A stretch of DNA of 64,000 bases from Tubiluchus corallicola (Eukaryota > Priapulida > Priapulimorpha > Priapulimorphida > Tubiluchidae), in assembly GCA_030141605.1 (NCBI GenBank), contig JAQGDQ010002402.1, positions 19,194 to 83,193 on the forward strand, given 5' to 3'. This document shows positions 4,575-63,827 of this stretch, piece by piece. Each line of letters begins with the position of its first letter. Position 1 is the stretch's first letter. The notes under the pieces were generated by a model. That model worked only from the letters and a program-made list of their open reading frames with translations. It did no database searches and had not been told where the DNA came from. A program made the position numbers and the translations under genes.

Positions 4575-6824
4575 CTATGGAGTGCTTAGGTAAAGAACAG
4601 GCCAAGAACCATTGCCTAACCATTGCCAGGGAGTGGTTTCATCTCCTCCAAAAAGCCAGCCTTCAAAAACTTCCTTGTCCTCATTGCCCGAATCTATATA
4701 AATACCTCCATCCTCTTGCAAATTAGACCCCGAGGAAACTCCTGTGCCCCCTGAGGAAGTCTCTTGCAAGGTTTGTGATATATCCCAATAACAAGAAGTA
4801 ATTGCAGAACTGTTATTTTTGTTATTCCCTACCAAACCGCCTAGACCTGCGCCACAGTTATCTGCCACAGGGCCTGAGGCATAACTATTAAGAATACTCC
4901 CATTTGCACTATTCTCGCCTACTAAACCGCCAATGCGATAATTACCAAAAACATACAGGCTTATAACTTGACCAGTGGTATAAGTATTACTTATTGCTCC
5001 AGCGTTTTCTCCCACCAAGCCTCCTAGTTTATCTCTACCTGATACCTTTCCTGTAGAATAACTATTATTTATTGTCCCTTCTCCTTCGTTACGATGGTTC
5101 TTTCCCACCAAGCCCCCAACACTTACATCCCCCGTTACAGAACCCGTAGAATAGCTCTCAGCGATAGAGCCTCCCCAATTCATCCCCACCAAGCCTCCAA
5201 CAAATTCATTCCCCTTTACAGAACTCGTAGAATAGCTACTATCTATTGTCCCGTTCCTGTTTACCTCTGAATAGATATTTATCCCCACCAAGCCTCCAAC
5301 TTCAGTATCCCCCTCCACAGAACCCGTAGAATAGCTCTCAGCGATAAAGCCGTCAGTAATGAATCCCACCAAGCCTCCAACATAAGCCTCTCCCGTTACA
5401 GAACCCGTAAAGGAACTACCAACAATAGAGCCCCACCAATATGCTCCCACCAAGCCTCCAACACCCTTATTACCCTTTACAGAACCTGTAGAATAACTAT
5501 TAACAACAGATGATCCCTCAATCCGCCCCACCAAGCCTCCAACAAAATCATTCCCCTTTACAGAGCCCGTAAAGGAACTACCAGCAATAGAGCCCCACCA
5601 ATCCCATCCCACCAAGCCTCCAGTATAGGTAAAACTCGTTCCCGTTCCCGTTACAGAACCCGTAAAGGAACTACCAACAATAGAGCCTTCCTGATTATGT
5701 CCCACCAAGCCTCCAGCAACACCCAAGCTTCCAGCACCTATAGTCCCCGTTACAGAACCCGTAAAGGAACTACCAACAATAGAGCCTCCCTGATTATGTC
5801 CCACCAAGCCTCCAGTAAATCTTCCTCCTCTTACATCACCATCTAATATGGTTAGATCCTTTACTTTTCCTTGTCCTTTTAGTACACCAAACAAACCCAC
5901 ATGGGACGTATTTGCCCCTCTATTAATGTAAAAATTATGTATGGTATGGCCTTGTCCATCTAATGAGCCTGTAAAACTACCAACAGGAGAAAAACCCGAC
6001 AAAGGAAATGACGTAGGAAAACTTCCGCCATCAACAGGGGAGGGGAAAGAAATATCGCCTTCCAAATGATAATCGCCCTCTAAATCATACTTCATACCTT
6101 GTAAATCCTGCCAACTCCTTATCTTATATTGCTCCTTCAAAACTGAATGATCTATTGACAACACACCTTCTGGCAAAGAAAATGAGACTGATATGACTAT
6201 TTCACCATCCGAAATAGCTTTCCAACTATCCAAAGGTAAAGAACTACCTAAAAAACAGCGGCCACCAGCTATATCAACTGTGCCTGAACCAGCCGACTCT
6301 CCTGATATCTCCAAGGTGTAATCGCTAACAACATCCGCTACGCCTACAAAAGAAACTTCAAATAAGCTGTCATTCTCAAAATCTCCTGAGCCTATCCTAT
6401 CAGCTATGCCAGAGTAACTCGAAACACGTAGGCTAAGCTCTTGTTTCTTTACCCTTACTTCATAGCGACGTTCAACGCCGCCCGTTGAGCTTACTACATA
6501 ATCTACAGGGGAAGAATAGTCCCGAAAAACAAACGGTGAGGGGGAAATAACTGAACCTTCTGGTATCTCTGCTTTCGCTTTCAATCTTGATACTTCTAAC
6601 CTTGGGGGACACAAGTACTCTATAATGTATTTGCCCGATGCACTCGGAGAATCTCCTATTGTGGCTTCGTCCCAATCCTCGCCTAATTGAAAGCTAAATG
6701 AAATTATGGAATTGAGAATAGATGGAGAGTCTTCTTCTAACAAATCTCCTTCTTTATGGCATCCAAATAAAAGAAATAGCATAGAAAAAACAATTATACT
6801 ATGCTTTAACAATCTTAACAGCAT
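4575..6824 (-). CDS. GLUG-repeat lipoprotein, copy 1
   Basis: 749 aa. Lipoprotein signal ending FLLFGC (Cys22), so probably outer-membrane or surface anchored. Residues ~30-260 form an N-terminal region almost identical in all three tandem copies, followed by SLDGQGHTIHNFYI and more than a dozen GLUG motifs (G-G-L-V-G then about 20 residues with S-T-G-S-V). Such motifs build beta-helical stalks in surface proteins and adhesins. The C-terminus contains CYWDISQT and WPVLYLSTP. This copy has more GLUG units than copy 2. Function is unknown; a surface or adhesion role is inference from the architecture. Confidence 0.85.
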   Translation of the reverse strand: MLLRLLKHSIIVFSMLFLLFGCHKEGDLLEEDSPSILNSIISFSFQLGEDWDEATIGDSPSASGKYIIEYLCPPRLEVSRLKAKAEIPEGSVISPSPFVFRDYSSPVDYVVSSTGGVERRYEVRVKKQELSLRVSSYSGIADRIGSGDFENDSLFEVSFVGVADVVSDYTLEISGESAGSGTVDIAGGRCFLGSSLPLDSWKAISDGEIVISVSFSLPEGVLSIDHSVLKEQYKIRSWQDLQGMKYDLEGDYHLEGDISFPSPVDGGSFPTSFPLSGFSPVGSFTGSLDGQGHTIHNFYINRGANTSHVGLFGVLKGQGKVKDLTILDGDVRGGRFTGGLVGHNQGGSIVGSSFTGSVTGTIGAGSLGVAGGLVGHNQEGSIVGSSFTGSVTGTGTSFTYTGGLVGWDWWGSIAGSSFTGSVKGNDFVGGLVGRIEGSSVVNSYSTGSVKGNKGVGGLVGAYWWGSIVGSSFTGSVTGEAYVGGLVGFITDGFIAESYSTGSVEGDTEVGGLVGINIYSEVNRNGTIDSSYSTSSVKGNEFVGGLVGMNWGGSIAESYSTGSVTGDVSVGGLVGKNHRNEGEGTINNSYSTGKVSGRDKLGGLVGENAGAISNTYTTGQVISLYVFGNYRIGGLVGENSANGSILNSYASGPVADNCGAGLGGLVGNNKNNSSAITSCYWDISQTLQETSSGGTGVSSGSNLQEDGGIYIDSGNEDKEVFEGWLFGGDETTPWQWLGNGSWPVLYLSTP

Positions 6825-6885
6825 TTTATTAGTGTATTTACTTTACTACTAGTTTATAGTAATCAAAATAATTAGTCAATACTTA

Positions 6886-6893
6886 CAAAGATA
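6886..6893 (-). promoter_or_regulatory. TAnnTTTG -7 element, GLUG copy 1
   Basis: Minus-strand TATCTTTG about 60 nt upstream of the start; the same element recurs upstream of copies 2 and 3, so each copy carries its own promoter. Confidence 0.5.
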
Positions 6894-6991
6894 AGGAATA
6901 GTGGGTGAAAATACAAGTAGAAAATATTCAGTAACATATTCTTTGATTTAATAGTAGAAAAATGAAAAAAGACTGTTGTTTTGCTAACAAA

Positions 6992-9007
6992 CTATGGAGT
7001 GTTTAGGTAAAGAACAGGCCAAGAACCATTGCCTAACCAGTGCCAGGGAGTGGTTTCATCTCCTCCAAAAAGCCAGCCTTCAAAAACTTCTTTGTCCTCA
7101 TTGCCCGAATCTATATAAATACCTCCATCCTCTTGCAAATTAGACCCCGAGGAAACTCCTGTGCCCCCTGAGGAAGTCTCTTGCAAGGTTTGTGATATAT
7201 CCCAATAACAAGAAGTAATTGCAGAACTGTTATTTTTGTTATTCCCTACCAAACCGCCTAGACCTGCGCCACAGTTATCTGCCACAGGGCCTGAGGCATA
7301 ACTATTAAGAATACTCCCATTTGCACTATTCTCGCCTACTAAACCGCCAATACGATAATTACCAAAAACATACAGGCTTATAACTTGACTAGTGGTGTAA
7401 GTATTACTTATTGCTCCATCGTTTTCTCCCACCAAGCCTCCTAGTTTATCTCTACCTGATACCTTTCCTGTAGAATAACTATTATTTATTGTTCCATCAT
7501 TTTCTCCCGCCAAGCCTCCTAGTTTATCCATACCTGATACCTTTCCTGTAGAATAACTATTATTTATTGCTCCATCGTTTTCTCCCACCAAGCCTCCTAG
7601 TTTATCTCTACCTGATACCTTTCCTGTAGAATAACTACCAACAATAGATGAGCTATCAACCCACCCCGCCAAGCCTCCAACAAAGTCACCACCTGTTACA
7701 GAACCCGTAGAATAACTACCAACAATAGATGAGCTATCAACCCACCCCACCAAGCCTCCAACACCCTTATTACCCTTTACAGAACCTGTAGAATAACTAT
7801 TAACAACAGATGATCCCTCAATCCGCCCCACCAAGCCTCCAACAAAATCATTCCCCTTTACAGAACCCGCAAAGGAACTACCAGCAATAGAGCCCCACCA
7901 ATCCAACCCCACCAAGCCTCCAACATGATCCGTTCCCGTTACAGACCCCGTAAAGGAACTACCAGCAATAGAGCCTCTGTCATTCATCCCCACCAAGCCT
8001 CCAGTAAATTTTCCTCCTCTTACATCACCATCTAATATGGTTAGATCCTTTACTTCTCCTCCTCTTAGTATACTAAACAAACCCACATAGTTTTTATTAC
8101 CCCTATTAATGTAAAAATTATGTATGGTATGGCCTTGTCCATCTAATGAGCCTGTAAAACTACCAACAGGAGAAAAACCCGACAAAGGAAATGACGTAGG
8201 AAAACTTCCGCCATCAACAGGGGAGGGGAAAGAAATATCGCCTTCCAAATGATAATCGCCCTCTAAATCATACTTCATACCTTGTAAATCCTGCCAACTC
8301 CTTATCTTATATTGCTCCTTCAAAACTGAATGATCTATTGACAACACACCTTCTGGCAAAGAAAATGAGACTGATATGACTATTTCACCATCCGAAATAG
8401 CTTTCCAACTATCCAAAGGTAAAGAACTACCTAAAAAACAGCGGCCACCAGCTATATCAACTGTGCCTGAACCAGCCGACTCTCCTGATATCTCCAAGGT
8501 GTAATCGCTAACAACATCCGCTACGCCTACAAAAGAAACTTCAAATAAGCTGTCATTCTCAAAATCTCCTGAGCCTATCCTATCAGCTATGCCAGAGTAA
8601 CTCGAAACACGTAGGCTAAGCTCTTGTTTCTTTACCCTTACTTCATAGCGACGTTCAACGCCGCCCGTTGAGCTTACTACATAATCTACAGGGGAAGAAT
8701 AGTCCCGAAAAACAAACGGTGAGGGGGAAATAACTGAACCTTCTGGTATCTCTGCTTTCGCTTTCAATCCTGATACCTCTAACGTTGGGGGACACAAGTA
8801 CTCTATAATGTATTTGCCCGATGCACTCGGAGAATCTCCTATTGTGGCTTCGTCCCAATCCTCGCCTAATTGAAAGCTAAATGAAATTATGGAATTGAGA
8901 ATAGATGGAGAGTCTTCTTCTAACAAATCTCCTTCTTTATGGCATCCAAATAAAAGAAATAGCATAGAAAAAACAATTATACTATGCTTTAACAATCTTA
9001 ACGGCAT
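6992..9007 (-). CDS. GLUG-repeat lipoprotein, copy 2
   Basis: 671 aa, tandem paralogue of copy 1. The signal peptide (Cys22) and first ~300 residues differ from copy 1 at only a few positions (for example TLEVSGL against RLEVSRL), and the last ~130 residues are nearly the same. The central GLUG cassettes differ in number and order: several GRDKLGGLVGENDG units are repeated here but single in copy 1. Identical flanks around a shuffled centre suggest unequal recombination between neighbours. Gaps between copies (about 150-170 nt) are themselves near-identical, so each unit carries its own promoter. Confidence 0.85.
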   Translation of the reverse strand: MPLRLLKHSIIVFSMLFLLFGCHKEGDLLEEDSPSILNSIISFSFQLGEDWDEATIGDSPSASGKYIIEYLCPPTLEVSGLKAKAEIPEGSVISPSPFVFRDYSSPVDYVVSSTGGVERRYEVRVKKQELSLRVSSYSGIADRIGSGDFENDSLFEVSFVGVADVVSDYTLEISGESAGSGTVDIAGGRCFLGSSLPLDSWKAISDGEIVISVSFSLPEGVLSIDHSVLKEQYKIRSWQDLQGMKYDLEGDYHLEGDISFPSPVDGGSFPTSFPLSGFSPVGSFTGSLDGQGHTIHNFYINRGNKNYVGLFSILRGGEVKDLTILDGDVRGGKFTGGLVGMNDRGSIAGSSFTGSVTGTDHVGGLVGLDWWGSIAGSSFAGSVKGNDFVGGLVGRIEGSSVVNSYSTGSVKGNKGVGGLVGWVDSSSIVGSYSTGSVTGGDFVGGLAGWVDSSSIVGSYSTGKVSGRDKLGGLVGENDGAINNSYSTGKVSGMDKLGGLAGENDGTINNSYSTGKVSGRDKLGGLVGENDGAISNTYTTSQVISLYVFGNYRIGGLVGENSANGSILNSYASGPVADNCGAGLGGLVGNNKNNSSAITSCYWDISQTLQETSSGGTGVSSGSNLQEDGGIYIDSGNEDKEVFEGWLFGGDETTPWHWLGNGSWPVLYLNTP

Positions 9008-9054
9008 TTTATTAGTATATTAGTTTATACAAAAAAATAACTATGCAATACTTA

Positions 9055-9062
9055 CAAAGATA
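9055..9062 (-). promoter_or_regulatory. TAnnTTTG -7 element, GLUG copy 2
   Basis: Minus-strand TATCTTTG upstream of copy 2, in a stretch shared with the other copies. Confidence 0.5.
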
Positions 9063-9160
9063 AGGAATAGTGGGTGAAAATACAAGTAGAAAATATTCAG
9101 TAACATATTCTTTGATTTAATAGTAGAAAAATGAAAAAAGACTGTTGTTTTGCTAACAAA

Positions 9161-11205
9161 CTATGGAGTGTTTAGGTAAAGAACAGGCCAAGAACCATTG
9201 CCTATCCAGTGCCATGGAGCGGTCTCGTCTCCGCCAAAAAGCCAGCCTTCAAAAACTTCTTTGTCCTCATTGCCCGAATCTATATAAATACCTCCATCCT
9301 CTTGCAAATTAGACCCCGAGGAAACTCCTGTGCCCCCTGAGGAAGTCTCTTGCAAGGTTTGTGATATATCCCAATAACAAGAAGTAATTGCAGAACTGTT
9401 ATTTTTGTTATTCCCTACCAAACCGCCTAGACCTGCGCCACAGTTATCTGCCACAGGGCCTGAGGCATAACTATTAAGAATACTCCCATTTGCACTATTC
9501 TCGCCTACTAAACCGCCAATACGATAATTACCAAAAACATACAGGCTTATAACTTGACTAGTGGTGTAAGTATTACTTATTGCTCCAGCGTTTTCTCCCA
9601 CCAAGCCTCCTAGTTTATCTCTACCTGATACCTTTCCTGTAGAATAACTATTATTTATTGTCCCTTCTCCTTCGTTACGATGGTTCTTTCCCACCAAGCC
9701 CCCAACACTTACATCCCCCGTTACAGAACCCGTAGAATAACTATTATTTATTGCTCCATCGTTTTCTCCCACCAAGCCTCCAACTTTATCCCCCTCCACA
9801 GAACCCGTAGAATAGCTCTCAGCGATAAAGCCTCAGTAATGAATCCCACCAAGCCTCCAACATAAGCCTCCCCCGTTACAGAACCCGTAAAGGAACTACC
9901 AACAATAGAGCCCCACCAATACACCCCACCAAGCCTCCAACACCCTTATTACCCTTTACAGAACCTGTAGAATAACTATTAACAACAGATGATCCCTCAA
10001 TCCGCCCCACCAAGCCTCCAACAAAATCATTCCCCTTTACAGAGCCCGTAAAGGAACTACCAGCAATAGAGCCCCACCAATCCCATCCCACCAAGCCTCC
10101 AGTATAGGTAAAACTCGTTCCCGTTCCCGTTACAGAACCCGTAAAGGAACTACCAGCAATAGAGCCTCTGTGTTGGTTCATTCATCCCCACCAAGCCTCC
10201 AGTAAATTTTCCTCCTCTTACATCACCATCTAATATGGTTAGATCCTTTACTTCTCCTCCTCTTAGTATACTAAACAAACCCACATAGTTTTTATTACCC
10301 CTATTAATGTAAAAATTATGTATGGTATGGCCTTGTCCATCTAATGAGCCTGTAAAACTACCAACAGGAGAAAAACCCGACAAAGGAAATGACGTAGGAA
10401 AACTTCCGCCATCAACAGGGGAGGGGAAAGAAATATCGCCTTCCAAATGATAATCGCCCTCTAAATCATACTTCATACCTTGTAAATCCTGCCAACTCCT
10501 TATCTTATATTGCTCCTTCAAAACTGAATGATCTATTGACAACACACCTTCTGGCAAAGAAAATGAGACTGATATGACTATTTCACCATCCGAAATAGCT
10601 TTCCAACTATCCAAAGGTAAAGAACTACCTAAAAAACAGCGGCCACCAGCTATATCAACTGTGCCTGAACCAGCCGACTCTCCTGATATCTCCAAGGTGT
10701 AATCGCTAACAACATCCGCTACGCCTACAAAAGAAACTTCAAATAAGCTGTCATTCTCAAAATCTCCTGAGCCTATCCTATCAGCTATGCCAGAGTAACT
10801 CGAAACACGTAGGCTAAGCTCTTGTTTCTTTACCCTTACTTCATAGCGACGTTCAACGCCGCCCGTTGAGCTTACTACATAATCTACAGGGGAAGAATAG
10901 TCCCGAAAAACAAACGGTGAGGGGGAAATAACTGAACCTTCTGGTATCTCTGCTTTCGCTTTCAATCCTGATACCTCTAACGTTGGGGGACACAAGTACT
11001 CTATAATGTATTTGCCCGATGCACTCGGAGAATCTCCTATTGTGGCTTCGTCCCAATCCTCGCCTAATTGAAAGCTAAATGAAATTATGGAATTGAGAAT
11101 AGATGGAGAGTCTTCTTCTAACAAATCTCCTTCTTTATGGCATCCAAATAAAAGAAATAGCATAGAAAAAACAATTATACTATGCTTTAACAATCTTAAC
11201 GGCAT
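9161..11205 (-). pseudogene. GLUG-repeat lipoprotein, copy 3, broken by three frameshifts
   Basis: The N-terminal half is open from 11205 and identical in kind to copies 1 and 2, with the same lipoprotein signal. Base-by-base comparison with the intact copies shows three lesions. About 7 extra bases lie near 10171-10177 (copy 2 lacks the gttggtt). One base is missing near 9920 (accaatacacc against accaatatgctc in copy 1). One base is missing near 9832 (aaagcctc against aaagccgtc). After the last lesion the frame is open again to the normal C-terminus at 9161. The lesions do not sum to a multiple of three, so the full protein cannot be made; a truncated lipoprotein of about 351 aa could be. 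Confidence 0.8.
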
Positions 11206-14834: not shown

Positions 14835-14868
14835 AAGTCGTGTTGCGTTGTGTGGCACGGCTTTTTTT
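14831..14868 (+). terminator. terminator-like hairpin, copy 1
   Basis: Stem AAGTCGTG...CACGGCTT with a short GC-containing loop, flanked by A-rich sequence and a T run, so it could stop transcription in either direction. Near-identical hairpins follow both LRR genes and recur at 18236-18272. Confidence 0.75.
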
Positions 14869-14897
14869 GCTTACATTTAAAAAATCATCAAATAAAA

Positions 14898-14928
14898 TTT
14901 GCGATTTACTATTTTCACATTACTTTTG
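14898..14928 (+). promoter_or_regulatory. promoter of LRR gene 1
   Basis: TTTG (14898-14901), 19-nt spacer, then TACTTTTG (14921-14928): a full Bacteroidota-type -33/-7 pair 50 nt ahead of the ATG. It supports the start at 14978 instead of the upstream ATG at 14840. Confidence 0.75.
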
Positions 14929-14977
14929 CTATCTTATAATTATTTTTTTTATCAACATTTTCAAATCATTTATCCTT

Positions 14978-16447
14978 ATGAAAAAAATACATTTATTTAA
15001 ACAATTAAGCATCGTTATGTTCTTAGCTGCTATGCTACTGACACATTGCTCTAAGGAAACAGAAAAAATAGAGACAGGGAATGCAAACTCGCAATTGAAA
15101 AATACTTGGCAGGGAGATATTAGTTTGTCTAGCCAAGCTGCGATTGATAGCATTGCTGCATTTGGTATCACTACGATAACAGGAGAGTTGCTCATAGGTA
15201 TGAAAAATGATGGATTTTCTAATATTACCGACCTTACGCCTTTGAGTACTATTACTCACGTAGGAAGCTTGAATATAAGAAGGAATAATAAATTGCGAAC
15301 TTTAGAGGGCTTAAGCATAGAGCGTTCCGATGATTTTGTTGCTGTGGCAGTGAATATTGGCTTAACTAATATGAACGGATTAAATAGTTTAACAACCATA
15401 AAGGGGCGTTTTTCTATTAATAACAACAATGGCTTACGAAATTTAGATGGCTTAGAAAACATAAGCTCTGTAGGGGGGAATTTAAACATTACCAACAATA
15501 GCATATTGGACAAGCATGGTTATTGTGGTATACAACCACTATTAGCAGATGGCCAAGTAGTAGGTGCAATAGACATATCGGGCAATAAAGACAACCCAGC
15601 AGTAGAAGAGATATTAGCTATGGACTGTGGCTCTAACCTTTTCTGGGTGCCTGATGATAATTTTAGGACTCAACTAAAATGGATAGTACCTAATGCTTTC
15701 ACACCCAACGATAGCCTGATAACTGACCACCCTGATGTGTTGGCTGCTACGGATATGGATTTGAAATTCAACGCTAATATTTCTTCTTTGGAGGGTGTGC
15801 AGTTCTTTACGGCTTTAAAGCTTTTGAATTGCTCTAGCAACAATATAGATAGTTTGGATATTAGTAGTAATACGGCTTTAATTACTTTGAGATGCAGTAG
15901 CAACCAACTCCAGAGTTTGGATGTGACTAACAATACGGCTTTAACTTATTTGAATTGCTCTAACAACAACCTCACGAGTTTGGATGTGAGTAGTAATACG
16001 GCTCTAGATCATTTGGATTGCTCTAACAACAATCTCACGAGTTTGGATGTGAGTCAGGATACGGCTTTAATTCTGTTGTATTGCTATGACAACCAACTCA
16101 CCAGTTTGGATGTGAGTAACAATACGGCTTTAATTACTTTGACCTGCGGTAGCAACCAACTCACGAGTTTGGATGTGAGTAACAATACAGTTTTAAGTTG
16201 GTTGTTTTGCAGTTTCAACCAACTTACAAGTTTGAATATGAGCGGGGCTACGGCTTTAACGGACTTGTATTGCTATGACAATAACCTTGATAGTTTGGAT
16301 GTGAGTAACAATACGGCTCTAACGGAGTTGTGGGTAGATCAAACTATAAAATGTGAGCCTTCTATTGTGAGTGTGAATCCGCCTTATTGTTTCTATTGGG
16401 ATGGGAATAGTAGTACTCGTTATTACCCTGCTACGGACTGCCCTTAG
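14978..16447 (+). CDS. leucine-rich-repeat lipoprotein 1
   Basis: 489 aa from the ATG at 14978. Lipoprotein signal ending MLLTHC (Cys24). Residues ~60-200 carry an irregular L-domain-like repeat region (ITDLTPLSTITHVGSL and following). From about residue 285 come regular 21-residue LRRs of the pattern N-x2-T-A-L-x2-L-x-C-x3-N-x-L-x-S-L-D-V-S, about nine of them, then a short cap with YPATDCP. Bacteroidota surface LRRs of this kind usually bind proteins or glycans; no ligand can be named. It is a tandem duplicate of the next gene, identical for most of the first ~280 residues. Confidence 0.85.
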   Translation: MKKIHLFKQLSIVMFLAAMLLTHCSKETEKIETGNANSQLKNTWQGDISLSSQAAIDSIAAFGITTITGELLIGMKNDGFSNITDLTPLSTITHVGSLNIRRNNKLRTLEGLSIERSDDFVAVAVNIGLTNMNGLNSLTTIKGRFSINNNNGLRNLDGLENISSVGGNLNITNNSILDKHGYCGIQPLLADGQVVGAIDISGNKDNPAVEEILAMDCGSNLFWVPDDNFRTQLKWIVPNAFTPNDSLITDHPDVLAATDMDLKFNANISSLEGVQFFTALKLLNCSSNNIDSLDISSNTALITLRCSSNQLQSLDVTNNTALTYLNCSNNNLTSLDVSSNTALDHLDCSNNNLTSLDVSQDTALILLYCYDNQLTSLDVSNNTALITLTCGSNQLTSLDVSNNTVLSWLFCSFNQLTSLNMSGATALTDLYCYDNNLDSLDVSNNTALTELWVDQTIKCEPSIVSVNPPYCFYWDGNSSTRYYPATDCP

Positions 16448-16450
16448 TAA

Positions 16451-16512
16451 GATAAAAGATAAAAACTAAAAGATAAAAAAAGTCGTGTTGCGTTGTGTGG
16501 CACGGCTTTTTT
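16451..16512 (+). terminator. four heptamers plus terminator hairpin after LRR gene 1
   Basis: Four GATAAAA/ACTAAAA units (16451-16478), then stem AGTCGTG...CACGGCT and a T run. Same arrangement as at 14831 and 18236. Confidence 0.75.
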
Positions 16513-16541
16513 TGCTTACATTTAAAAAATCCTCAATTAAA

Positions 16542-16572
16542 CTTGTAATATACTATTTTCACATTACTTTTG
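16542..16572 (+). promoter_or_regulatory. promoter of LRR gene 2
   Basis: CTTG (16542-16545), 19-nt spacer, TACTTTTG (16565-16572), copied from the LRR gene 1 promoter apart from the -33 change TTTG to CTTG. Confidence 0.65.
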
Positions 16573-16621
16573 CTATCTTATAATTATTTTTTTTATCAAC
16601 ATTTTCAAATCATTTATCCTT

Positions 16622-18091
16622 ATGAAAAAAATACATTTATTTAAACAATTAAGCATCGTTATGTTCTTAGCTGCTATGCTACTGACACATTGCTCTAAGG
16701 AAACAGAAAAAATAGAGACAGGGAATGCAAACTCGCAATTGAAAAATACTTGGCAGGGAGATATTAGTTTGTCTAGCCAAGCTGCGATTGATAGCATTGC
16801 TGCATTTGGTATCACTACGATAACAGGAGAGTTGCTCATAGGTATGAAAGATGATGGATTTTCTAATATTACCGACCTTACGCCTTTGAGTACTATTACT
16901 CACGTAGGAAGCTTGAATATAAGAAGGAATAATAAATTGCGAACTTTAGAGGGCTTAAGCATAGAGCGTTCCGATGATTTTGTTGCTGTGGCAGTGAATA
17001 TTGGCTTAACTAATATGAACGGATTAAATAGTTTAACAACCATAAAGGGGCGTTTTTCTATTAATAACAACAATGGCTTACGAAATTTAGATGGCTTAGA
17101 AAACATAAGCTCTGTAGGGGGGAATTTAAACATTACCAACAATAGCATATTGGACAAGCATGGTTATTGTGGTATACAACCACTATTAGCAGATGGCCAA
17201 GTAGTAGGTGCAATAGACATATCGGGCAATAAAGACAACCCAGCAGTAGAAGAGATATTAGCTATGGACTGTGGCTCTAACCTTTTCTGGGTGCCTGATG
17301 ATAATTTTAGGACTCAACTAAAATGGATAGTACCTAATGCTTTCACACCCAACGATAGCCTGATAACTGACCACCCTGATGTGTTGGCTGCTACGGATAT
17401 GGATTTGAAATTCAACGCTAATATTTCTTCTTTGGAGGGTGTGCAGTTCTTTACGGCTTTAAAGTGGTTGAATTGCTCTTACACCAATATAGATAGTTTG
17501 GATATTAGTAGTAATACGGCTTTAATTACTTTGAGATGCAGTAGCAACCAACTCCAGAGTTTGGATGTGACTAACAATACGGCTTTAGAGTATTTGAGTT
17601 GCTGTTCCAACAATCTCACGAGTTTGGATGTGACTAACAATACGGCTTTAAATCGTTTGAGTTGCTATTACAACAATCTCACGAGTTTGGATGTGAGTCA
17701 GAATACGGCTCTAGATTATTTGATGTGCCATGACAACCAACTCACCAGTTTGGATGTGAGTAACAATACGGCTTTAAATGTTTTGGGTTGCCGTTCCAAC
17801 AATCTCACGAGTTTGGATGTGAGTAACAATACGGCTTTAAATATTTTGGGCTGCCATTCCAACAATCTCACGAGTTTGGATGTGAGTAAGAATAGAACTT
17901 TAACTGGGTTGGAGTGCTATGAGAACTATCTCACGAGCTTGGATGTGAGTAACAATACGTATTTAGCGTTATTGAAGGTAGATGAGGCTAGAAAATGTGA
18001 GCCTTCTATTGTGAGTGTGAATCCAAATAATTGTGAGTATTGGAATGGAAGTGAACTCATTAGCTATAACCCTGCTACGGACTGCCCATAG
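16622..18091 (+). CDS. leucine-rich-repeat lipoprotein 2
   Basis: 489 aa, tandem paralogue of LRR gene 1 at a 1644-bp offset. The signal peptide (Cys24) and N-terminal half differ by a single residue (D for N in GMKDDGF). The 21-residue LRR units diverge strongly at their variable positions (for example YLSCCSNNLTSLDV, VLGCRSNNLTSLDV), while the scaffold residues stay fixed. The cap is similar (CEPSIVSVNP, YNPATDCP). Conserved scaffold with changed surface positions is what recombination or selection on a binding face would give. Confidence 0.85.
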   Translation: MKKIHLFKQLSIVMFLAAMLLTHCSKETEKIETGNANSQLKNTWQGDISLSSQAAIDSIAAFGITTITGELLIGMKDDGFSNITDLTPLSTITHVGSLNIRRNNKLRTLEGLSIERSDDFVAVAVNIGLTNMNGLNSLTTIKGRFSINNNNGLRNLDGLENISSVGGNLNITNNSILDKHGYCGIQPLLADGQVVGAIDISGNKDNPAVEEILAMDCGSNLFWVPDDNFRTQLKWIVPNAFTPNDSLITDHPDVLAATDMDLKFNANISSLEGVQFFTALKWLNCSYTNIDSLDISSNTALITLRCSSNQLQSLDVTNNTALEYLSCCSNNLTSLDVTNNTALNRLSCYYNNLTSLDVSQNTALDYLMCHDNQLTSLDVSNNTALNVLGCRSNNLTSLDVSNNTALNILGCHSNNLTSLDVSKNRTLTGLECYENYLTSLDVSNNTYLALLKVDEARKCEPSIVSVNPNNCEYWNGSELISYNPATDCP

Positions 18092-18518: not shown

Positions 18519-18674
18519 TTTAAACTCTCTAAAAACGACATAAAAAACACAAAAAAGACTTCAAGAGCCGTATTTTCCTATAAATACCTATATATTAGCA
18601 GCTTATGCTTTTCTCGTAATATAAAAACAAAAAGAATGTAGAAAAAATATGTACATTTTGTTTTGCGGATTATA
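18519..18674 (-). repeat. degenerate, split copy of repeat family F
   Basis: In reverse orientation, 18627-18674 and 18519-18558 match the two halves of the repeat found on both sides of the CRISPR locus (starting ..ccgcaaaa.., then ctacattctttttg, then tatgtcgttttta). About 68 nt of unrelated sequence separates the halves here. Confidence 0.55.
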
Positions 18675-18689
18675 ATAGAATCATAACTC

Positions 18690-26385: not shown

Positions 26386-26488
26386 AGTATAACCCGCAAA
26401 ATGAAATGTAGACACCTTTTCTACATCCTTTTTGTGTTTCTTATGTCGTTTTCAAGAGGTTTAAAGCTCATTTTTCTTTAAATGTATA
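26386..26488 (+). repeat. repeat family F, left copy (flanks the CRISPR-Cas13 locus)
   Basis: About 100 nt starting agtataacccgcaaaa and ending ..ttaaatgta. Matches 30001-30103 in the same orientation with about a dozen differences and two small indels. Confidence 0.75.
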
Positions 26489-26645: not shown

Positions 26646-27077
26646 GGTGTATTTACCTTACAAATTAAGGTGGGTAACACCAGGTTTTTGAAAGTGAAGA
26701 ATATGTTGTAAGGTGTATTTACCTTACAAATTAAGGTGGGTAACACCCAGAAGTTTAACGAGGCGTTGAAAGATAACGGTGTATTTACCTTACAAATTAA
26801 GGTGGGTAACACCTAAAATTTTAGATTTACAGCCTCATTTGTCGGTGTATTTACCTTGCAAATTAAGGTGGGTAACACCTTTAGAGGATGTCTCTGCGTT
26901 TAGTCCATTGGTGTATTTACCTTACAAATTAAGGTGGGTAACACCAAGTGCCATTAATGGGAGCAACCCTGCACAGGTGTATTTACCTTACAAATTAAGG
27001 TGGGTAACACCTTATGAAACCAGAAACATTCAACCAACTTAGGTGTATTTACCTTACAAATTAAGGTGGGTAACACC
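26646..27077 (-). CRISPR. type VI-B CRISPR array, 7 repeats and 6 spacers
   Basis: Repeats of 36 nt at 26646, 26712, 26778, 26844, 26910, 26976 and 27042; all six spacers are exactly 30 nt. Six repeats are identical and the one at 26844 has one A-to-G change. Read on the minus strand, the repeat begins GGTGTTACCCACC and ends TTTGTAAGGTAAATACACC. GGTGT pairs with ACACC and ACCTT with AAGGT. This order, with TTTG in the loop and a GGTAAnnACAnC end, matches what I recall of published Cas13b repeats. Thirty-nt spacers also fit type VI-B. The strand call is inference. Confidence 0.95.
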
Positions 27078-27082
27078 TAATG

Positions 27083-27090
27083 CAAATATA
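27083..27090 (-). promoter_or_regulatory. candidate promoter element for the CRISPR array
   Basis: Minus-strand TATATTTG (TAnnTTTG) ends 6 nt outside the last repeat, so transcription would begin at or just inside the array, reading leftward with the same polarity as cas13b. No good -33 element was seen. Confidence 0.45.
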
Positions 27091-27141
27091 ATACTTATTT
27101 TTAAAAGTGTTTCAGTCTTTTTTGCTGTATAAAAAATGACA

Positions 27142-29769
27142 TTATTTTGAGGGTAATAGCTGTTTCGCTTTGTTTTCTAGCTTTTTTTCTATTCTTTGGC
27201 GCATTTCTTTTATGATATCTTTTTGTGTTTTAAAGTCTCCAATATTGTAGTTTTCTAAATGAAAAGCAGCGTTTCTTGCTTTTATTAGTGGTTCTATGTT
27301 TATATTTTCAATAATGTATTTGTACTGCGAGTTGGCGTTTAGTTCGTTTATAAGTATGTTGAAGTTTATATATTCTGCTTCTTGGTCTGTATACTTTATT
27401 TTTTCTTTTTTAAACGTATCTTGTTTTAATTTCTTTTTCTCGTCAGACGAAAGTTGTTGACATATTTCTTTTTCAAAGTTCAGTATTTCTTGTATAAAGT
27501 CTTGGTGTATGGGATTAAATTCTCTCAGTTTGTTTTTTATTTCATAAGCGCGGATTTGTTCTTGTTTTTTTTCAAAAGAAGTTTTGAGCAGATTTTCTAT
27601 ATTTTTCAATTCTAGAATGTATGCCAAACGGTCGTAGTTTTGGTGCGAAAACACAATAGTTCTTCCACCTAAATGAAAGTTTAACTCTTTAAAAAAAGAG
27701 GTAAAGGGTATTTTTTTCTTGGAGGTTTGTTTTACTTCCATTTTTTCGTCATAATATTTTTGGGCAAAGAGCAGCATTAGTTCAGTTTCTATACGCAGCC
27801 TGTATAGGCTAATGGGGTATTGCTCTTTGTTGTTGTTTTTCTTTTTAAATTTTTGTTTGTCTTCTTCTGTAAAGTAAGGTAGGTTGTACTCTATGAGAGG
27901 TTGTACGTCTTTATAGTCTATTTTTTGGGTTTTGGTAAGATTTTCTTGGGGTATGGTTATGCTTTGGTATAGATGTTTGAGTAGGTATGGTAAGTTTTCG
28001 CAAAAGTGTTCTCCTATAGGAACTTTCATTTTTAGAGCTATTTTTTTTATAGTTTTCGTATCGCTTTCTGCAAGTTTTTTTTGAAATTTTTCCAGTTCGT
28101 TTATGTATTGGGCTATCAGTTTATTGAGTAATCGATTTCTTTCGGGGAGTTCCTCTAATTTTAATTTTTCAAGGTTTGGCACAAGTTTTTTCTTCTTGTT
28201 TTTTAAATAGCTCCAAAAATTGGAGGGTTTATGGTTGTAGCCTAGTAAGTGCTGTTTTAGTTCTTCGTATTGATTGTGTAGTGTTTTGTTTTCTTTGTCG
28301 TATGTTCTGTTAAGTTTTCCTTGATAGTTGTCTCCTGCTTCCAAAAAATAGTTGAGCAGGTACATTATTTTGTTTATAATTTCTTCTAGTTTTATTTTTG
28401 AGTTTCTATAATTTGAGTTGGTTTTGTGTTCTTTGACTTTTTGATTTTTATAGTTTAATCTGGCTTTTAATTTTCTGTATTCTATTAATTGTTCTCTTAC
28501 CGTTTTTTTTACGTTATCTTTCAGTTCTTCTATCCATTCTTGCTCATTGGGTTGGTAGTTGTTTTTTTTGTAGAATATGTGTTTTTTCAGGGCTAAGGGT
28601 AGTGTGTTGGCTATGTCTTTTTCAAATATTATGTTTTTTACAACAAGTTTGTTTTCTGATGCTGCTGTGCTATCTATTTTTTCTCCTTGTAGGGTGGTAG
28701 CTTCTTTTACATTAAAAAAGTATTCGTCCCAATCTTTGTTGTCTATAGCTAATAGTAATTTTTGATAATTTTTTATATATTTTATTATATGTTTGGTGGT
28801 AAATTTTTCTTTAAAAAAGTCATATAGCATCAAGTAATGCAGATATTTGCTAATACGTATTCTGGGGGTTGCTTTTAGGTTGTTGCTAAGAAACAGGTCT
28901 TCTTTTTGATACTCTAAAAGTAAGTGGTTGTTATGGAGTTTTACTATGGGTTCTAAGGTTTCTTTTTTCAATTGCACTTTTAAGGTTTGGGGACTCTGAT
29001 AGGTGTATGGTAGGGTTTTTTCCCATTGTGGTGTGTTTTTTTCTGGCTTTTGGTAGTTTTTGTTTTTGGAATATATAAAGAAGTCTTGCAGCTGGTCGTT
29101 TTCTATAAGTTGATGTGAGGTAAGATGAAAAAACCAGTTTTGTCTTTCGGGGAGTTTGTCTTCTTCATTTTCCTTCAATTCGTTTTGATAGTAGGTTGTG
29201 TAGTTGTTAAAAACTTCGGAGGGTATTCTGTTTAGATATGTTAGGGTTCGGTAAAATATATTGTGTGTAAAAAGATTCGGATTTTCTTCGCGTAGACATA
29301 AGGCTGTTAAAACGTTGCGTTTGTATCTGAAAAATTCTGTTTGAGTACCTTTGGTTCCTGTGGCAGTGGATAGTAGTAGGTGAGCAACGGCTTTTGAAAG
29401 AAAAGGCGATACAAGAAGTTTTAGCCCATCAGGTGTTAAAGGGATTTCTTCTGTTTCTTCATTTTTCAAGTTTTTTTCATTAGGAAAGAGTCTAAATTTT
29501 ATGCGTTTTCTTTGGGGTAGAACAATACCTTTTTGGGCTTTGGATAGAAGGGTGTTGAGTGTTTTTTTAAAATCTTCTTCTATTGTAATTTGGAAGTTGC
29601 TTTCTCCGTGAGAAAAGTAGTTTCTAAGATATTTAATTTTTGAGGTTACAAGTTCTATTTCTGTTTTGCTGAATAGGTCGGGTCTTAGTTTTTCTTTTTG
29701 TTCTAGTTTTTTGATATATTCGTAAGCTAGGTTATAGGCTGCAGCGTATTGGTTTTTCAGAAAAGGCAT
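27142..29769 (-). CDS. cas13b: Cas13b-like RNA-guided RNA nuclease, compact
   Basis: 875 aa. Two HEPN ribonuclease motifs RxxxxH sit at opposite ends, RNYFSH (R49-H54) and RNAAFH (about R832-H837), the domain layout that distinguishes Cas13b from Cas13a, c and d. The body is Lys/Glu-rich with no membrane segments. Characterised Cas13b proteins are usually about 1,100-1,200 aa; the small Cas13b-t/Cas13X forms are about 775-805. The first motif is about 65 residues closer to the N-terminus than in well-studied Cas13b, yet an in-frame stop 8 codons upstream of the ATG excludes a longer protein. Expected role: crRNA-guided cutting of target RNA plus collateral RNA cleavage. No Csx27/Csx28 or adaptation genes nearby. 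Confidence 0.9.
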   Translation of the reverse strand: MPFLKNQYAAAYNLAYEYIKKLEQKEKLRPDLFSKTEIELVTSKIKYLRNYFSHGESNFQITIEEDFKKTLNTLLSKAQKGIVLPQRKRIKFRLFPNEKNLKNEETEEIPLTPDGLKLLVSPFLSKAVAHLLLSTATGTKGTQTEFFRYKRNVLTALCLREENPNLFTHNIFYRTLTYLNRIPSEVFNNYTTYYQNELKENEEDKLPERQNWFFHLTSHQLIENDQLQDFFIYSKNKNYQKPEKNTPQWEKTLPYTYQSPQTLKVQLKKETLEPIVKLHNNHLLLEYQKEDLFLSNNLKATPRIRISKYLHYLMLYDFFKEKFTTKHIIKYIKNYQKLLLAIDNKDWDEYFFNVKEATTLQGEKIDSTAASENKLVVKNIIFEKDIANTLPLALKKHIFYKKNNYQPNEQEWIEELKDNVKKTVREQLIEYRKLKARLNYKNQKVKEHKTNSNYRNSKIKLEEIINKIMYLLNYFLEAGDNYQGKLNRTYDKENKTLHNQYEELKQHLLGYNHKPSNFWSYLKNKKKKLVPNLEKLKLEELPERNRLLNKLIAQYINELEKFQKKLAESDTKTIKKIALKMKVPIGEHFCENLPYLLKHLYQSITIPQENLTKTQKIDYKDVQPLIEYNLPYFTEEDKQKFKKKNNNKEQYPISLYRLRIETELMLLFAQKYYDEKMEVKQTSKKKIPFTSFFKELNFHLGGRTIVFSHQNYDRLAYILELKNIENLLKTSFEKKQEQIRAYEIKNKLREFNPIHQDFIQEILNFEKEICQQLSSDEKKKLKQDTFKKEKIKYTDQEAEYINFNILINELNANSQYKYIIENINIEPLIKARNAAFHLENYNIGDFKTQKDIIKEMRQRIEKKLENKAKQLLPSK

Positions 29770-29823: not shown

Positions 29824-29897
29824 GTTCTTTTTCTTAAAACAATATTGTAACCAAAAAAAGGATGTAAAAACTGTATAATTCGCCTTGTGAGTTACAA

Positions 29898-30002
29898 TTA
29901 GGTCATTTGTATGCTTTAAATTAGCATATAAGGTGATTTTTGTTACATATCTGCTTTAAAAATTAGCGTAGTTTTATAACTTGCTTTACAAAAAACTCTT
30001 AG
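29898..30002 (+). repeat. repeat family G, copy 1
   Basis: About 105 nt starting ttaggtcatttgtatgcttt and ending ttgctttacaaaaaactcttag; matches 30239-30364 directly. It abuts the start of repeat F right copy. Confidence 0.75.
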
Positions 30003-30103
30003 TATAACCCGCAAAACGAAATATAAGTATCTTTTCTACATTCTTTTTGTGTTTCTTATGTCGTTTTCAAGGGATTTAAAACTTTCTTTTTGTCTTAAAT
30101 GTA
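30001..30103 (+). repeat. repeat family F, right copy
   Basis: Same orientation and about 85% identity (by eye) to 26386-26488; shared core ctttttgtgtttcttatgtcg. Together the two copies bracket the array and cas13b. Confidence 0.75.
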
Positions 30104-30238
30104 AGTCCAACTGACACCCCAACTATTTTTCGTTGTTTTTTTGCACAAAAAAAAGGAGGCTTTTAGCCCCCCTGTAGATTGTTATTTGTCTGTATTTTGT
30201 GTGTTTATATTGCTTTTATGGCTCGCTTTCAGTGTTTA
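30104..30238. other. spacer between repeats, with a short hairpin
   Basis: No ORF. Around 30153-30175 an aaaaaaaaggaggc...gcccccctg segment can form a short imperfect stem next to an A run; it may be a weak terminator for the minus-strand leu operon. Otherwise nothing recognised. Confidence 0.3.
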
Positions 30239-30364
30239 TTAGGCTATTTGTATACTTTAAATTAGCATATAAGGCGGTTTTGTTACATATCTGCTTTAAA
30301 AATTAGCGTTAAATTAGCGTAAATTAGCATAAACTTACTAACTTGCTTTACAAAGTGCTCTTAG
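30239..30364 (+). repeat. repeat family G, copy 2
   Basis: About 126 nt, a direct copy of 29898-30002 with a small internal expansion (ttagcgttaaattagcgtaa). It lies immediately downstream of leuD. Confidence 0.75.
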
Positions 30365-58838: not shown

Positions 58839-59339
58839 TTAAAATAATCTAAGATGATGAGTTAAGTCTCCTACCCTCCGTTTTCTATTGTTGAGTTTGT
58901 TGAAATACTGGTTACGTATATTGTGGGCTATTTCTAACATTTGAATATCTAAGGGTTTTGTTCTCCAATGTGGTTTTAGGTAGTTTCTCTCTAAATGTTT
59001 GTAGGCGTGTCTATCTTGTTTGTATAGTTGTTTGAGTGTGGTTACATAAACAAAACTACTCCCCTCTTTTTGGTGTGAAATATCTATACCAGTAACTTGG
59101 CAATACTTCACCTGTTTTAACTCTATATATAAGGGGTTAATTTGGGTGAAGTTGTTATTTTCAAACTTGGTTAATTCGGGTGAAGTTTGGGTATCGTTTT
59201 TAAGTAATTCATTACATTTTTTTTCTATCAAAGAGAATGTTTTTGTATGGTAGGTATTTTGATTGTATTTGTCTCTTAGTTCTTTAAATCTTAATTGTTG
59301 CAATTTGTTGCAATTTGTTGCAACAAATAAAAGGAACAA
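58839..59339 (-). CDS. mobile-element-type hypothetical protein (166 aa), inverted-repeat copy 1
   Basis: The maximal frame starts with TTG, and there is no ATG until late, so the true start is uncertain. C-terminal half has KYCQVTGIDISHQKEGSS, then DRHAYKHLERNYLKPHW and EIAHNIRNQYFN, a pattern I associate with uncharacterised Bacteroidota phage or plasmid proteins, though I cannot name the family. Its N-terminal codons lie in a tandem array of the motif aacaaattgc. An almost identical copy is at 63327-63827. Confidence 0.5.
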   Translation of the reverse strand: MFLLFVATNCNKLQQLRFKELRDKYNQNTYHTKTFSLIEKKCNELLKNDTQTSPELTKFENNNFTQINPLYIELKQVKYCQVTGIDISHQKEGSSFVYVTTLKQLYKQDRHAYKHLERNYLKPHWRTKPLDIQMLEIAHNIRNQYFNKLNNRKRRVGDLTHHLRLF

Positions 59340-63326: not shown

Positions 63327-63827
63327 TTGTTCCTTTTATTTGTTGCAACAAATTGTAACAAATTGCAACAATTAAGATTTAAAGAACTAAGAGACAAATA
63401 CAATCAAAATACCTACCATACAAAAACATTCTCTTTGATAGAAAAAAAATGTAATGAATTACTTAAAAACGATACCCAAACTTCACCCGAATTAACCAAG
63501 TTTGAAAATAACAACTTCACCCAAATTAACCCCTTATATATAGAGTTAAAACAGGTGAAGTATTGCCAAGTTACTAACATAGATATTTCACACCAAAAAG
63601 AGGGGAGTAGTTTTGTTTATGTAACCACACTCAAACAACTATACAAACAAGATAGACACGCCTACAAACATTTAGAGAGAAACTACCTAAAACCACATTG
63701 GAGAACAAAACCCTTAGATATTCAAATGTTAGAAATAGCCCACAATATACGTAACCAGTATTTCAACAAAAGAAACAACAAAAAACGGAGGGTAGGAGAC
63801 TTAACTCATCACCTTAGATTATTTTAA
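63327..63827 (+). CDS. mobile-element-type hypothetical protein (166 aa), inverted-repeat copy 2
   Basis: Near-identical to 58839-59339; differences include VTNIDIS for VTGIDIS and NKRNNKKRR for NKLNNRKRR. TTG is the only start codon near the beginning of the frame, so the N-terminus is uncertain. The high conservation implies recent duplication or ongoing gene conversion. Confidence 0.5.
   Translation: MFLLFVATNCNKLQQLRFKELRDKYNQNTYHTKTFSLIEKKCNELLKNDTQTSPELTKFENNNFTQINPLYIELKQVKYCQVTNIDISHQKEGSSFVYVTTLKQLYKQDRHAYKHLERNYLKPHWRTKPLDIQMLEIAHNIRNQYFNKRNNKKRRVGDLTHHLRLF

Follow-up and report, generated by a model that had tools for sequence, protein, structure and literature searches.

A compact, highly divergent Cas13b-like effector beside a CRISPR array in a bacterial-looking contig

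Among described Cas13b effectors, BzCas13b (PDB 6AAY) has 1224 aa and the compact Cas13bt3/Cas13X.1 (PDB 7VTI, 7VTN, 8FTI) has 775 aa. According to the available part of PMC9554183, Cas13Bt-A, Cas13Bt-B and Cas13e are about 800 aa long and Cas13f to Cas13i about 1100 aa, and the available part of PMC12669027 names the smallest Cas13b group VI-B3 without setting a size limit for it. Cas13bt3 leaves its own pre-crRNA unprocessed, and PbuCas13b processes its own (PMC7613696). No group of Cas13b proteins of 870-880 aa was found described in the open-licence literature searched. The 875-aa effector analysed here is about 350 aa smaller than BzCas13b, about 240 aa smaller than the Cas13b proteins (1112-1120 aa) of loci L098, L100 and L089, from genomes in the same order as a Bacteroidales MAG, and 100 aa larger than Cas13bt3. 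With Cas13an, as far as the accessible text of PMC12165695 describes it, it has in common two HEPN domains and a presumed spacer-before-repeat crRNA; Cas13an proteins, however, have 429-577 aa and are without a canonical REC lobe, whereas the present protein has a REC-like middle.

The effector gene and its Cas13b affinity

The gene lies on the minus strand at 27142..29769 of the window, the 64,000-nucleotide stretch of DNA that was analysed. The initial annotation had given these coordinates exactly without stating the strand, which is now added; the plus strand of 27142-29769 is full of stops. An in-frame stop stands 8 codons ahead of the ATG without any other start codon in between, so the start of the 875-aa frame is right, as had been argued. 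All three frames were read and no continuation was found in the other two, ruling out a missed start or an upstream frameshift. Codon usage is inside the range of 16 neighbouring genes, and G+C is slightly lower than in these. The gene is an intact cas13b-like one by its open reading frame, family profiles, alignment and structural matches, and the earlier interpretation of the product as a compact Cas13b-like effector is supported.

The RxxxxH motif occurs exactly twice in the protein, as RNYFSH (R49-H54, at 29608..29625, minus strand) in a helix predicted for residues 35-54, and as RNAAFH (R832-H837, at 27259..27276, minus strand) in a helix predicted for residues 826-837. Two or more RxxxxH motifs are common by chance (272 of 2000 shuffles of the effector), but two or more RNxxxH motifs arose in 32 of 20,000 shuffles. 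In an alignment of 27 rows both motifs match the catalytic motifs of Cas13b, with HEPN1 N-terminal, HEPN2 C-terminal and one RxxxxH in each, which is the terminal placement that had been proposed. Retained in the same alignment are YxxxYNLA near the N-terminus, LRNYFSH, GLxxLxxxFLSK, RIPSE, E766 and RNAAFH.

The Cas13b models of NCBIfam and PADLOC match the first ~200 residues of the effector, with E values of 3.5e-11 and 2.2e-12, respectively. Its score of 41.8 bits is far below the curated NCBI equivalog cut-off of 150 bits, which L098, L100 and L089 far exceed and which five other Cas13-like loci (L094, L117, L118, L119 and L120) likewise miss. Since 150 bits is a naming threshold that these five do not reach either, we claim homology and a presumably VI-B-like way of working, not inclusion in the NCBI equivalog family. 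Against a profile built from 25 further Cas13b rows, residues 1-230 score 56.8 bits (best of 200 shuffles 7.9), residues 641-875 score 8.2 bits (best shuffle 3.4) and residues 231-640 score -2.3 bits (best shuffle -7.6); a full-length search with this profile returned the three pieces in order, with a positive score for the first only. By contrast, a profile of 115 Bz-like Cas13b proteins gave -35.9 bits at full length. Searches of Pfam and of PDB sequences with the effector returned no match. Identity to the 26 Cas13b rows is 14-20% overall and does not exceed 25% across the N-terminal 230 residues, and the best short local stretch is one of 34% over 85 residues with L089; overall identity is 17-18% with the protein P0001, which shares 95% of its residues with BzCas13b. 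With Cas13bt3, identity is ~18-24%. At the structural level, the HEPN1 model superposes on BzCas13b over 156 residues at 3.0 A, and Cas13b structures can be aligned with the middle of the model as far as residue 580. At HEPN2 the C-terminal model gave weak matches to HEPN proteins. Cas13 chains were absent from the list of structural matches to the C-terminal model, a second look at 87 chains that excludes nothing.

The initial annotation had also reported a shortfall of about 65 residues before HEPN1, and its size is right: only 36 residues separate the NLA of the N-terminal motif from R49, the shortest such stretch among the 27 rows (81-148 residues in 24 of the 26 others, 72 in L117 and 52 in Cas13bt3). 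Because the YxxxYNLA motif is retained, this shortfall is an internal deletion. The effector keeps every landmark that can be aligned, yet its pre-HEPN1 stretch is shorter than in 26 of 26 other rows. Relative to the Cas13b proteins of L098 and L100 it has 60-67 aa fewer before HEPN1 and has lost 33-57 residues from F213 to S307, 40-48 from S307 to Q623, 35 from Q623 to V706 and 23-24 from V706 to E766, and has gained 12-15 from E766 to R832, the mid-protein landmarks resting on weak alignment. The compactness is therefore spread across the whole protein, and on the sequence comparison the small size most likely goes back to internal deletions from an ancestral Cas13b of full size rather than to loss of an end or of a domain. 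The difference in size from Cas13bt3 falls mostly between S307 and Q623 (237 residues in Cas13bt3 vs 316 here).

The CRISPR array and its surroundings

A CRISPR array, absent from the initial annotation, occupies 26646..27077 and consists of seven 36-nt repeats and six 30-nt spacers with a period of 66. Six of the repeats are identical and one carries a single base change; the array search gave 7 repeat matches vs none in 100 shuffles. The locus thereby has the VI-B arrangement of a single large effector beside an array of 36-nt repeats and 30-nt spacers. The 64-bp stretch between effector and array (27078..27141, minus strand) is a possible leader, and 5 bp ahead of the first repeat it contains a TAnnTTTG element (27083..27090, minus strand), the consensus -7 element of Bacteroidota promoters; such sites occur about once per kb on each strand of the window, which makes the element weak promoter evidence.

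Read on the strand of the gene, the repeat is GGTGTTACCCACCTTAATTTGTAAGGTAAATACACC. Among the four locus repeats compared (those of L118, L098, L099 and L100, without L094 and L101), it is closest to L098 and L100, with 26 and 25 of 36 positions shared, followed by L099 with 23 and L118 with 20; the form of the L098 repeat that was compared occurs once there, and the gene-proximal copies start with A, which would cost one match. With the repeats of BzCas13b and PspCas13b it shares 22 and 17 of 36 positions. The opposite strand shares 16-18 positions with the four locus repeats, and 16 and 14 with the repeats of BzCas13b and PspCas13b. Minus-strand transcription of the array is preferred over plus-strand transcription on this similarity; repeat folding, at -15.0 kcal/mol for the plus strand and -10.4 for the minus strand, speaks against it. 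From the repeats we infer that the crRNA strand is the minus strand, with which the -7-like element and the antisense spacer 6 agree. The second pair of the usual terminal stem, GTTGT/ACAAC, is altered on both sides to G-C (G2-C35). The gene-then-array layout is common to this locus, L098 and L100, and the array lies upstream in L099 and L118.

When the array, with all six spacers, was used as a query against 50,697 phage records, 7 records were matched, the best being that of Microvirus MT135434 to the gene-proximal spacer 6 (27012..27041, minus strand) with an E value of 0.04; the other matches listed for the six spacers in phages and plasmids have E values from 0.4 to 5. The match covers 27 of 30 bases and spans the start codon of a small conserved gene, an ORF of 65 aa, whose relatives at E <= 1 fall in 15 records, its own among them, each bearing the name Microviridae or Microvirus. 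In all four that were examined of the 14 other records, the best match of spacer 6 is at the same start codon (21-23 of 30), and the other spacers reach at most 18 of 30 in each of these five microvirus loci. The plus strand of spacer 6 corresponds to the mRNA, so a crRNA from the minus strand would be antisense, which Cas13 requires. The bases flanking the protospacer (5' U, 3' UCA) would satisfy the BzCas13b preference, as would about one third of random sites. In viral_contigs, scanned with exact or degenerate patterns of spacers 6, 5 and 2, there was no match, and no relatives of the microvirus gene were found in that set.

Of the neighbouring genes, named by eye, leuD, leuC and leuA lie on one side, and the opposite side carries dnaJ and a gene for a beta-propeller-like protein. 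No cas1, cas2, csx27 or csx28 was recognised by eye among ORFs of at least 80 aa nearby and at least 130 aa elsewhere. The module is flanked by two copies of a dispersed intergenic repeat, at 26386..26486 on the left and 30001..30103 on the right, in direct orientation and 84% identical; such direct repeats could help in the gain or loss of the cas13b-array module by recombination. Further copies lie at 18519-18677 of the window and at L086:4618-4825. A 73-bp direct duplication, 92% identical, is found upstream of cas13b, before leuD (29897-29969 and 30238-30309). Elsewhere in the window are a tandem series of lipoprotein-like genes that closely resemble one another and carry GLVG-type repeats in varying number, some in short frames (4575-11205), a tandem pair of closely similar genes for leucine-rich-repeat proteins (14840-18091), and two near-identical ORFs of 166 aa, oppositely oriented and separated by about 4 kb (58839-59339 and 63327-63827), possibly a mobile element. 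The window forms the final 64,000 bp of a contig of 83,193 bp, in an assembly whose size (343.5 Mb in 2344 contigs) is that of a eukaryote. The ORFs of the contig that were inspected look bacterial by eye, and the best segment of its E1 dehydrogenase has at most 60% identity to proteins from genomes with Bacteroidales in their titles. Most likely the contig is bacterial and comes from an associate or a contaminant within the eukaryote assembly.

Relatives and phylogenetic position

A protein word search (7999 candidates scored, with words from the first 500 residues) found no close relatives of the effector at E <= 1e-3. A two-row alignment of the effector and Cas13bt3 found none at E <= 0.01; this search also recovered no Cas13bt, so its negative is weak. 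No relatives were found in genome_contigs, viral_contigs, plasmids or phages, and in 393 genomes searched in six frames there was one match, to a Cas13b of full-size type cut by the contig end. Cas13b family scans of 395, 393 and 395 partly overlapping genomes gave matches in 6, 21 and 4 genomes, respectively. In the scan of 393, seven of the 21 matching genomes had nothing above the NCBI cut-off, and five of these seven carry an apparent Cas13-type effector; a cut-off based on full-size Cas13b thus overlooks Cas13-like loci.

Among these loci, L117 (5449-8310, in G485) encodes a Cas13b-like protein that is likewise compact, with 953 aa, the motifs RNYFSH and RNDVLH close to its ends, a score of 76 bits against the NCBI model and 17% identity with the effector; no array was found within the 9.6 kb examined. 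Three proteins of 1079-1086 aa, at L094:5161-8397 (G077), L119:2758-6006 (G575) and L120:5355-8612 (G475), form a well supported group far under the NCBI cut-off, and L094 has an adjoining array of about 31 units, mostly with a 66-nt period. In L118 (5710-7896, in G563) a 728-aa Cas13b-like frame with HEPN1 and without HEPN2 lies about 1.1 kb downstream of an array with ten VI-B-like repeats; the frame stops 44 bp from the contig end, and the absence of HEPN2 is either a loss or an assembly edge. Several candidates were set aside by eye: L091, whose HEPN-like C-terminal end adjoins a UmuC-like gene, L113 and L121, which adjoin a response regulator, and the family-scan matches L112, L122 and L093. 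Given L117, L118 and the group of L094, L119 and L120, the effector is one of several deep Cas13b branches, and it is the smallest protein with both motifs among the loci inspected in full.

The effector was set in a Cas13b phylogeny, as the initial annotation had suggested. Without L118, which lacks a C-terminal end, and four partial loci (L096, L105, L107 and L114), the tree included 7 of the 120 listed Bz-like proteins, with Cas13bt3 as the sole Cas13bt row. Eleven rows that we label VI-B1-like, a name coined here, form one group with support of 100/100. The effector, whose branch has a length of 3.6 changes per column, joins Cas13bt3 at 85/91; the join has no star and bears the flag of long branches meeting. 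It remains when L117 is removed (88/88), and when Cas13bt3 is removed the position of the effector is unsupported. Three other placements were not rejected by AU tests: with the VI-B1-like rows (p 0.067), with the other, nine-row group (p 0.126) and with L117 (p-AU 0.124).

Origin and possible role of the locus

Very probably this is a complete minimal locus of VI-B kind in a Bacteroidota bacterium, made up of a single array and a single Cas13b effector that is compact and highly divergent. The sequence itself shows the gene with its two motifs, the array, the homology of the repeat and one antisense phage match. The locus is real, compact, VI-B-like and apparently intact, with a putative function in RNA targeting. 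That the protein could be some other two-HEPN protein, such as a toxin or RNase unrelated to Cas13, lying beside an orphan array by chance, is scarcely credible: the empty Pfam, PDB-sequence and protein-database searches and the resemblance of the C-terminal model to HepT-type proteins and Csm6 would fit it, but the N-terminal Cas13b homology of 56.8 bits, the C-terminal homology in order, and a repeat of Cas13b-associated type 64 bp downstream, in the layout of L098 and L100, argue against it. Somewhat less improbable, although still unlikely, is a decaying full-size Cas13b that is losing segments and is non-functional. Segments are missing at several places, the branch is long, the array holds just six spacers, and L118 offers another compact case without HEPN2; however, the 875-codon frame is uninterrupted with both motifs intact, the repeats are near-identical (one substitution in seven copies), their terminal pair is altered on both sides, and codon usage is host-like.

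A more serious contender, which we nonetheless regard as doubtful, is that the effector is an ordinary, merely longer member of a described compact group (Cas13bt, Cas13X/Y, variant VI-B3). The tree joins it to Cas13bt3, but by long branches meeting, and leaves it unplaced without that row; identity to Cas13bt3 is low; among ten rows compared the best BLASTP scores are those of L098 (46.6 bits) and L089 (44.7 bits), above that of Cas13bt3 (36.6 bits); and 875 aa exceeds the average of ~800 aa of Cas13Bt-A/B given in the available part of PMC9554183. At somewhat short of even chances, the effector represents a separate compact Cas13b lineage that was miniaturised independently of Cas13bt by internal deletions, is accessory-free, and would protect its Bacteroidota host from ssDNA microviruses by cleaving their transcripts. 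In a VI-B locus of this kind, whatever its lineage, the array would be transcribed on the strand of the effector gene to give a crRNA with the spacer followed by a 3' repeat hairpin, which the REC lobe of the effector would presumably load and hold. Pairing with a phage transcript would unite R49/H54 and R832/H837 into a single RNase site, and the assembled HEPN site may then cut both target and bystander RNA. If the separate-lineage reading is true, the family would gain a small, orthogonal enzyme for targeting RNA, with a repeat variant of its own that is marked by the G2-C35 terminal pair.
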